DNA of 47,680 nt from Bacillota bacterium (GTDB lineage Bacteria > Bacillota > Desulfitobacteriia > Desulfitobacteriales > Desulfitobacteriaceae). The notes under the pieces were generated by a model. That model did not search any database, had not been told where the DNA came from, and was given only the letters and a program-made list of their open reading frames with translations. Each line of letters starts with the position of its first letter. The stretch's first letter is position 1. Shown piece by piece: positions 10,443 to 14,779 of the stretch. A program made the position numbers and the translations under genes. The stretch spans positions 1 to 47,680 of the forward strand of contig JAUZPJ010000002.1 of NCBI GenBank assembly GCA_030706025.1, in the 5' to 3' direction.

Positions 10443-11207
10443 CTATTTCAATACCAAAAGAACAAATATCCAACATCCCAAAATTACCGCGCCCACGCGA
10501 TCCTGAGAGGTCCTTTCATGCATCATGAGAGTTCGATAATTGCCCGAAGCATATCCTCTCAAGGTCAGGTTTTCCGCCAGCTCTTCCGCCCGCCTTAAGC
10601 TTAATAGGATAAGTGGTACAATAAGCTGAATAAGTTCCCGAGATCGTTCAAGCCACGAAGATGGCCACTCGCCTTTAAGGGCTCTGACTTTCCAAATAAG
10701 TGTTGCCTCTTCAATAATAAGAGGAATAAATCTCAATGTTAGCGTAAGTAAAAGTGCGAAATCCGCGGCTTTCGGAGTAATTGGAATAAGGGGGTTCAAG
10801 AAATATGCTATCCCTGATCCTTGTTCTAAGGGCATCGTTACCGCCGTAAAAAGTCGAGTCAAACCAAAAACGAGAATAACTCTCCATAGCATTATAATGG
10901 CTTGCAATAGCCCCTCTTGTGACCAATGGCCCTGCCATACTGCTCTGTTTTCAGGCCAAACCCATCCCGCAGCTAGACCGTAAAACAAGCCCATCCAGAT
11001 CATTACAACAATGAGTGAACGGTATAGCTTAAAGGGGGTATGACTTAAAAACACTAGCCCAAGCAGTACCAAAGAATTAAGTGTGAGTCCCTGCCACCCA
11101 ATCACCGTCATTGAAAGGGATATAATAGCCAACCCAGCAACTTTTAACCTCGGATCAAGACAATGCAGTAAACTGTTACCAGGCCAGTAGAGTTCGAAGC
11201 CTTTAAT
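10443..11207 (-). CDS. ecfT: ECF transporter transmembrane protein EcfT, probably starting at ATT
   Basis: The membrane coupling subunit of an energy-coupling factor importer; it links the ATPases to a substrate-binding S protein. The ORF track gives 229 residues from a TTG at 11132, but the frame is open for 25 more codons and encodes LLHCLDPRLKV, the conserved EcfT N-terminal motif, so the true start lies upstream. A stop (TAA) at 11208-11210 bounds it, and the first codon after it, ATT at 11207, is eight bases after a perfect AGGAGG. No ATG, GTG or TTG exists between them. The resulting 254 residues fit the family. The C-terminal SLRRAEELAENLTLRGY is the coupling motif. It follows ecfA after 14 bases. 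Confidence 0.88.
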   Translation of the reverse strand: MKGFELYWPGNSLLHCLDPRLKVAGLAIISLSMTVIGWQGLTLNSLVLLGLVFLSHTPFKLYRSLIVVMIWMGLFYGLAAGWVWPENRAVWQGHWSQEGLLQAIIMLWRVILVFGLTRLFTAVTMPLEQGSGIAYFLNPLIPITPKAADFALLLTLTLRFIPLIIEEATLIWKVRALKGEWPSSWLERSRELIQLIVPLILLSLRRAEELAENLTLRGYASGNYRTLMMHERTSQDRVGAVILGCWIFVLLVLK

Positions 11208-11221
11208 TTAAAACTCCTCCT

Positions 11222-12685
11222 TTAGAAGCGCACTCCAGCCGCTCGAAATTGCTCGAGATGCTCTTTCCAACACTGCTTAGAACAGTCCAACACTACCTTC
11301 CCGCCTTCAACTAACCAAAGTCGGTCAGCATCCTGCAAAACATCTCTTAAGTCGTGAGTTACATACATGATTGTTATATCCTTCAGTTCGGATATCATAG
11401 TCTGAATTCTGCGGCGGCTCGCTGAATCGAGTCCGAGGAGTGGTTCGTCCATAAGAAGAATCTCAGGATTTGTTCTCAAAGCCGCGGCTAACGCAACCCT
11501 CTGTCGTTCACCCCCACTCAACTGTTCAGGAGCATAATCTAACAAGTTTCCGACCAAACCGAATTTGCCCAAATAAGACAGCCTACTTGACCTATTGTTT
11601 TCTAGCTCTCGTTTTGCTTCCCCAAAATAAACTTCCTGGTAGGCTGTTCGTCCAATCAAATATTCTCCAGCTTCTTGAAGAACCAAACGAACCTCTTTAC
11701 GCCAATCATTCAAAATTACTTTCGTAATTGGTGCTCCAAATCCAAGAATCTGTCCCTCTGTAGGCATTATAAGCCCAATTGCACTTTCTAATAAAGTCGT
11801 TTTGCCTGAACCTGAAGGACCAACAATTCCTATAAACTCTCCTGCTTTTACGGCTTTATTCAACTGTAAACGAGTTGAGAAGTTGGTCTGCTTCCATTCG
11901 AGCACAGGCCGAGAGCTGTTTTTCGATTCAATTACAGGATGAGTTACCCTCTCATTGGACATCGTCTCAACTTGATGTCCTGATCGCTTACCGGAAGGGC
12001 CGTAAAGAGCATATAACTCTTTAGAGGAAAATGCCTCGCGCGGGATGCCCTTGTCCACAAGTTTCCCATGTTCAAGAACCAATAAACGATCGGCGTGGCT
12101 AGCAAGTTCGATATCATGAGTAATCCAAAGTTGCCCTGTTTCTGCACGCGCCTGGAATAAAAGTTTGAGCACGTTGGCTTGCGCTCGTGCATCAAGCATA
12201 GTTAAGCCTTCATCTAAAATTAAGAACGAAGGTTGCAGTGCCAGAATCGCCGCAGTCACAAGTCTTTGCCTTTCCCCGCCTGATAGTGTCGCTGGAGACT
12301 GATCCTCTTTACCAGCTAGTCCAACAAAAGAGGCCAACTCTTTCACTTTACGTCTTACCTCCAGAGTATCCAACCCAAGATTTAAAAGACCGAAGCCTAA
12401 TTCTTCAGCGACTGTTACACCAATCGTTTGCCGCATTGGATGTTGCCCTACGAGTCCAATTTCCTGCCAACGCTTAACCTTATTCCAAGCACAAGGGGAG
12501 CCATCAACTATCAGACTGATCTCCCCATGATCTGGCTCAGTTAACCCTACTAAGAGACGCGCCAATGTTGATTTCCCAGAACCATTAGCGCCCATAAGCG
12601 CAATGACCTCGCCTTGGTGCCAGTCAATATTAACTCCATTCAATATATCACGATAATGGATGTCCCGCACTTTGAGGATTTTCAT
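11222..12685 (-). CDS. ecfA: ECF transporter ATPase, fused EcfA1-EcfA2
   Basis: A 487-residue protein with two complete ABC ATPase domains that powers ECF uptake of a vitamin or metal. Domain 1 (about 1-230) has GANGSGKST, LSGGERQRL, LDEGLTMLDA and WITHD; domain 2 (about 262-487) has GPSGSGKTT, LSGGERQRV, MDEPLLGLDS and YVTHD. A linker at about 230-260 is rich in Ser and charged residues. In most Firmicutes these are two genes at this same locus, so this appears to be a fusion; the 'MLD' and 'GLD' Walker B endings match EcfA1 and EcfA2 respectively. No frameshift is needed to read through. No S component is in the window, as expected for a shared module. Confidence 0.93.
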   Translation of the reverse strand: MKILKVRDIHYRDILNGVNIDWHQGEVIALMGANGSGKSTLARLLVGLTEPDHGEISLIVDGSPCAWNKVKRWQEIGLVGQHPMRQTIGVTVAEELGFGLLNLGLDTLEVRRKVKELASFVGLAGKEDQSPATLSGGERQRLVTAAILALQPSFLILDEGLTMLDARAQANVLKLLFQARAETGQLWITHDIELASHADRLLVLEHGKLVDKGIPREAFSSKELYALYGPSGKRSGHQVETMSNERVTHPVIESKNSSRPVLEWKQTNFSTRLQLNKAVKAGEFIGIVGPSGSGKTTLLESAIGLIMPTEGQILGFGAPITKVILNDWRKEVRLVLQEAGEYLIGRTAYQEVYFGEAKRELENNRSSRLSYLGKFGLVGNLLDYAPEQLSGGERQRVALAAALRTNPEILLMDEPLLGLDSASRRRIQTMISELKDITIMYVTHDLRDVLQDADRLWLVEGGKVVLDCSKQCWKEHLEQFRAAGVRF

Positions 12686-13132: not shown

Positions 13133-14080
13133 TTAATCTTCAGCCGGACGGAACGATAAACCTAAGTCTTTAAGTTTAAATTCCACTTCTTCCAAAGACT
13201 TGCGACCAAGGTTACGTACTTTGATCATATCTTCTTCCGTTTTTTGAGTCAGCTCTTCAACCGAGTTAATCCCTGCCCTTTTCAGGCAGTTATAGGATCG
13301 AACGGACAGATCAAGTTCCTCAATCGTCATCTCAAGGATTTTATCTTTGGCTTCCTCTTCCTTTTCCACCATAATCTCAACATTATTGAGTTTATCAGTG
13401 AGTCCCATAAACAGACGCAGGTGATCACTCAGAATTCTAGCGGCCGTGCTGGTAGCCTCTTCAGGAGAGATACTGCCATTAGACCATGCCTCAAGGGTTA
13501 ACTTGTCATAGTCCGTGATTTGCCCAACCCGCGTAGCTTCTACTGTGTAGTTAACCTTGTATATCGGGGCGAAGATGGAGTCAATAGGAATAACTCCGAT
13601 GACATGATCTGGTTTCTTATTTTTATCTGCAGAAACATAGCCACGACCACGTTCTACCGTCATTTCCATAAATAAACGGCCATCGCGATCTAATGTGGCG
13701 ATCTTCAAATCTTCGTTCAGAACCTCAATGTCAGGGTCAGTGATTATATCTCTAGCTGTGACAACCCCTTCATTTTGAGATTCAATGCGAATTACCCGAG
13801 GTTCATCTGTATAGCCTTTTAGAGCAAGGGACTTTAGATTGAGAATAATGTCCGTAACGTCTTCCAAAACACCCGGAATCGTGGAAAACTCGTGCTGTAC
13901 CCCTTCAATTTTTACCGATGTCACCGCTGATCCTGGAAGAGAAGATAACAGGATCCGCCTCAGGGAATTCCCCAAGGTAATTCCATATCCTCTTTCCAGT
14001 GGTTCAACTACGAATTTTGCATAGGAGTCATCTTCAGAACGCTCGACACACTCGATTCTGGGCTTCTCGATTTCTAACAT
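13133..14080 (-). CDS. rpoA: DNA-directed RNA polymerase subunit alpha
   Basis: The assembly platform of RNA polymerase: the N-terminal domain dimerises and binds beta and beta', the C-terminal domain contacts DNA and activators. With the ATG at 14080 the protein has 315 residues, beginning [13 protein letters not shown]; the ORF track adds 17 residues before it without a ribosome binding site. The dimerisation motif [20 protein letters not shown] (about 29-48) and the C-terminal helix-hairpin-helix [16 protein letters not shown] and [12 protein letters not shown] are clear. It lies between rpsD and rplQ as in other Firmicutes. Confidence 0.98.
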
Positions 14081-14149
14081 CGGAATGCACCTTCTTTCTC
14101 GAGAACTTGATATACTAACCATCCGACCCATACGGGTAGAACGTCAACA

Positions 14150-14779
14150 TTAACGGGAGTATTTCTCCACGATGAGGTGTTCTTGGATGGGTAGTTGAAT
14201 ATCTTCACGAGTTGGTAGTGCAACAACGGTTCCAGCAGCAGCATTGGCATCCAAGCTTAACCATCCGGGGACTGTCCGTGAACCCAGATTTTCAAGGAGT
14301 TGTTTAATACGTGGTGAACTCTTGCTACCCTCGCGAACAGCAATTACTTCGCCTACACGCACCGAGTAGGAAGGAATGTCAACTTTATGTCCGTTCACAT
14401 TAAAGTGGCCATGATTAACAAGTTGACGAGCTTCCGGACGGGAAGAGGCGAAACCTAAGTGGAAAATCACATTGTCTAAACGACGCTCTAACAGAACAAG
14501 CAAGTTTTCACCTGTTACCCCTTTGCGGCGAGCAGCCTCTTCAAAATAGTGACGGAACTGTTTTTCCATAACGCCATATAAGCGACGTGCTTTTTGTTTT
14601 TCTCGTAACTGAAGTCCATATTCAGTAGGTTTTTTTGCCCGTGCTTGGCCGTGTTGTCCAGGAGCGTAGGCACGACGATCTATCGCACACTTCCCAGTAT
14701 AACAGCGTTCCCCTTTAAGGAATAACTTCAATCCTTCGCGACGGCATAAGCGACAGACTGGTCCAGTATATCTAGCCAT
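14150..14779 (-). CDS. rpsD: 30S ribosomal protein S4, zinc-binding form
   Basis: A primary assembly protein of the small subunit and part of the mRNA entry site. The start at 14779 has a perfect AGGAGGTG; the ORF-track start is 16 codons too early. The 209-residue product carries four cysteines, C9, C12, C26 and C31, marking the zinc-ribbon (C+) form. The S4 RNA-binding domain [20 protein letters not shown] is in the middle. It sits inside the alpha operon, unlike Bacillus subtilis, where rpsD is a separate autoregulated gene. Confidence 0.98.

Follow-up and report, generated by a model that had tools for sequence, protein, structure and literature searches.

ecfT probably starts at a conserved AUU, AUC or AUA codon in a group of Desulfosporosinus genomes

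From the perspective of translation initiation, AUU, AUC and AUA (AUH) codons form a class that is discriminated against by initiation factor IF3 and that lowers yield when used as start codons. Such a codon begins infC, the autoregulated gene of IF3 itself, which starts with AUU, AUC or AUA, and also E. coli pcnB, whose translation is limited by its AUU start. To our knowledge, very few bacterial genes besides infC retain a start of the AUU class over many species. In S. aureus, the starts of ccpN (AUA) and cvfC1 (AUU) were mapped experimentally and are conserved in related species, and non-canonical starts reached about 10% of the AUG level in reporters, ccpN attaining as much as 30% when the medium was rich (PMC13009471). 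In Listeria, rnhC starts with ATC and reporters ranked ATG > ATA > ATT (PMC13068326), while in Streptomyces IF3 acts as a repressor of sigR, which has a GTC start (PMC5472188).

Here, we analyzed ecfT, which encodes a subunit of a vitamin transporter, in a window of 47,680 nucleotides (contig JAUZPJ010000002.1, the whole stretch of DNA considered) from a Desulfosporosinus draft genome that is 80% complete and in 511 contigs. Our literature searches found no earlier report of a non-canonical ecfT start. The gene resembles infC in its apparent AUH start, placed after a strong Shine-Dalgarno sequence (SD) and conserved across the genus, and the same genomes carry infC with an invariant ATT; it differs in that infC encodes an initiation factor, whereas ecfT encodes a membrane transporter subunit and the third base of its start varies between T, C and A. 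With ccpN and cvfC1 it shares a non-canonical start, a strong extended SD and conservation across related species, but the starts of those genes were mapped experimentally, whereas ecfT, with a start predicted from sequence, is internal to an operon and has its SD in the upstream stop codon. Finally, pcnB, rnhC and sigR are likewise single genes with a non-canonical start, all of them different genes from ecfT. The features of the locus are as follows.

10443..11207, minus strand: ecfT, CbiQ/EcfT family transmembrane subunit (PF02361 match and similarity to EcfT in the PDB), 254 codons with ATT start, stop included
11205..11207, minus strand: probable ATT initiation codon of ecfT (ATT, ATC or ATA here in 15/15 genomes of the clade)
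11208..11210, minus strand: TAA in the ecfT frame, abutting the ATT
11216..11223, minus strand: SD of ecfT, AAAGGAGG, 8 nt before the ATT and overlapping the ecfA stop codon
11222..12685, minus strand: fused ecfA1-ecfA2 ATPase gene, 487 aa with two ABC domains, its TAA (11224-11222) 14 nt before the ATT
11130..11132, minus strand: TTG, first in-frame canonical codon of ecfT, without SD and rejected as start

Reread on the minus strand, the junction shows ecfA ending in CGC TTC TAA (last base 11222), AAAGGAGG overlapping this stop, then AGTTTTAA and ATT AAA GGC TTC GAA CTC TAC TGG; the start context is CTTCTAAAGGAGGAGTTTTAA, ATT, AAAGGCTTCGAACTC. The AGGAGG of the SD lies at 11221-11216 on the minus strand with a spacer of 8 nt to the ATT, and its duplex with the 16S tail is predicted at -12.0 kcal/mol. 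An earlier note on this DNA had placed an ATT at 11207 eight bases after a perfect AGGAGG, in a frame with a stop at 11208 and no ATG, GTG or TTG before the TTG at 11132, and both observations are correct: the TAA at 11210-11208 abuts the ATT, and that TTG is codon 26, past the conserved EcfT N-terminus. This N-terminus, predicted from the ATT as IKGFELYWPGNSLLHCLDPRLKV, is indeed encoded upstream of the first TTG, as had been claimed.

The identity of the gene is clear from its product, which matches the PF02361 (CbiQ) profile with 76 bits (E 3.2e-21) and aligns with the solved EcfT chains 4hzu (E 8.7e-18), 4huq and 5d3m in alignments that begin at residue 5 or 7; both the profile match and the similarity to solved EcfT place it in the EcfT/CbiQ family. 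EcfA1 and EcfA2 are fused into one 487-aa protein with two ABC ATPase domains, also in the relatives that carry this ecfT, and the order rplQ-ecfA-ecfT-truA-rplM-rpsI is retained among relatives.

We then looked at the start codon across the genus, in a sample of 30 genomes, 19 of which carry this ecfT; in the rest, EcfT relatives are remote (26-29% identity) or absent. Across 14 further Desulfosporosinus genomes (68-82% identity), the ATT aligns with ATC (eight), ATT (five) or ATA (one), and never with ATG, GTG or TTG; with the window added, this makes ATC eight times, ATT six times and ATA once (collectively ATH), the first two bases being invariant in 15/15. Close relatives thus have no ATG at this codon, and within the genus ATG occupies the corresponding position only in four more distant genomes (58-62% identity), while in the family's other genera an ATG, GTG or TTG sits at this position or within one or two codons of it. 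An SD precedes the ATH in 15/15 genomes, with duplexes of -11.8 to -16.1 kcal/mol, and is strong in both the ATH and the ATG group. The incomplete state of the draft, with its 511 contigs, might invite the view that the ATT is an assembly or sequencing error for a true ATG, but ATH recurs in 14 further assemblies, including those of two isolates, D. metallidurans OL and Desulfosporosinus sp. I2, which rules out such an error for the clade-wide pattern and makes it scarcely credible for the window.

Could translation begin elsewhere? Among the ATH genomes, summed diversity over codons 2-13 is 1.48, 0.81 and 4.34 at codon positions 1, 2 and 3, the same pattern as in later codons; because variation sits mainly at third positions, these codons read as coding, and the coding constraint starts directly after the ATH codon. 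This bears on a start further downstream, at TTG 11132 or an equivalent TTG or ATG in relatives, which would leave the upstream reading, including FELYWPGNSLLH, untranslated. A canonical codon is indeed available at codon 26, and at codons 13-14 in many relatives, but a start at the TTG would delete codons 2-25, whose protein sequence is conserved in all relatives and can be aligned with crystal structures of EcfT; moreover, TTG 11132 lacks an SD, and in three genomes (L002, L014 and L016) the first canonical codon comes no earlier than codon 26 or 29. We therefore reject the downstream TTG, regard any such start as very improbable, and side with the earlier note in favoring the ATT.

The opposite alternative, in which EcfT would arise by frameshifting, as a continuation of the ecfA frame, or from a canonical start further upstream, draws on the five of 15 genomes where the frame is open upstream into ecfA and holds canonical codons there (at least 10 codons upstream in four of these), and on a sixth genome, L010, where a GTG lies three codons upstream of the ATH. 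However, in the other nine of the 15 no canonical codon occurs between the upstream in-frame stop and the ATH: this stop lies 6-27 codons upstream in seven of them and abuts the ATH in two, the window and L007, where an upstream in-frame start, a frameshift and readthrough into codon 1 are therefore excluded. The GTG of L010 follows GGAGG by only some 2 nt, a distance from the SD too short to be favored, yet L010 is the sole genome in which a different start close by can be envisaged. We accordingly reject frameshift or readthrough from ecfA, and an upstream origin of EcfT seems exceedingly unlikely. With no canonical codon at the start of the coding region, its SD spacing and its coding constraint, ecfT displays what characterizes genes with a non-canonical AUH start, and we consider it very likely that AUH is the true start of ecfT in the window genome and in the clade.

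The neighboring genes served as controls. Among 18 other cluster genes, almost every genome has ATG or TTG at the codon that aligns with the start in the window, and ecfT is the sole cluster gene with a conserved ATH start pattern. The mismatches at rpmD are an artefact of the codon chosen, its ATG being two codons further on, and the N-terminus of ecfA is variable among genomes, with GTG, ATG or TTG a few codons upstream of the aligned start. At rpoA, the codon aligned with window position 14080 is ACG in L056 and CTG in L064, whereas every other complete genome shows ATG following AAGAAGGTGCATTC(C)G; in these two the start may have moved, an in-frame ATG being found about 14 codons upstream, or may be non-canonical. 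The pattern at ecfT, found in 14 other genomes and in no other gene of the cluster, is beyond chance. A wider survey covered the window and, in three relatives, the contigs that carry ecfT, with 62-91 conserved ORFs per genome, and yielded no other clear AUH-start gene; its flagged list, judged by eye, contained antisense ORFs that are spurious as well as genes whose SD region is conserved.

Two further observations concern this cluster. The start of rplQ (window 13107) is TTG in the window and 14 relatives and ATG in two. Between rpsD and rpoA lies a stretch (window 14080-14158) with strong conservation throughout the genus (TCCCGTTAATGTTGACGTTCT...GAGAAAGAAGGTGCATTCCG); the rpoA frame is mostly open through it, L058 carrying a stop, and it is possibly a conserved leader.

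With regard to the capacity of these bacteria to use such codons, infC was identified in 29 Desulfosporosinus genomes (L072-L100) and starts with ATT in every one of them, mostly after the SD GGGGGTGG or GGAGGTGG. Because of this, AUU initiation very probably works in the genus, and IF3-sensitive initiation is plausible there. For ecfT itself, IF3-linked control is a doubtful proposition, to which only the type of codon and the ATT start of infC point.

How might such a start act? In the mechanism that we propose, ecfT would be translated from AUU, AUC or AUA, preceded by a strong SD that overlaps the stop of the fused ecfA1A2 or lies next to it. The weak codon would most likely reduce EcfT synthesis relative to the ATPase and might render it sensitive to initiation fidelity, hence to IF3, while the strong SD, perhaps together with coupling to ecfA termination, would hold initiation at the correct place. 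Such coupling is possible because the ecfA stop lies 13-18 nt before the ATH, with the SD beside it, in the 14 ATH genomes where this stop could be placed. Initiation at AUH, reduced EcfT yield and IF3 sensitivity are all inferred from comparative sequence evidence.

It is also quite conceivable, at a little short of an even chance, that AUH is a real start with no regulatory role, descending from a single ancestral loss of the canonical start that was tolerated through the strong SD and ecfA coupling and followed by drift among AUH codons. Indeed, by parsimony the tree needs one change between ATG and ATH plus two third-base changes within ATH, the third-base pattern is indistinguishable from that of four-fold sites, and the SD is strong in both groups alike. 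Against such drift, one mutation would restore ATG, yet ATH is kept in 15/15 genomes while synonymous sites changed repeatedly (an average of 4.3 parsimony steps at four-fold sites, versus the two third-base changes within ATH). That the third base is never G is no more than suggestive, since avoidance of G was not significant (8/40 four-fold sites also lack it). The tree is compatible with the ATH genomes being monophyletic (AU p 0.71) but does not establish it, and RNAalifold found no conserved hairpin or RNA structure at the ecfT start site beyond column shuffles.

Returning to a functional reading of the AUH start, we give a regulatory or dosage role an even chance. A more ambitious version, in which the start is a selected, clade-wide control point by which the energy-coupling module of vitamin uptake is tied to the state of the initiation factors, parallel to the autocontrol of infC, strikes us as rather unlikely. 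In any case, ecfT appears to join the small known class of genes with conserved non-canonical starts (infC, pcnB, rnhC, ccpN, cvfC1). Gene finders limited to ATG, GTG and TTG would shorten EcfT or misplace its start in these genomes, and the ATH and ATG forms of ecfT in related groups of one genus offer a natural comparison for the effects of weak starts. For the biology of these bacteria, the pattern suggests that EcfT output may be held low, or tuned, already at translation initiation.
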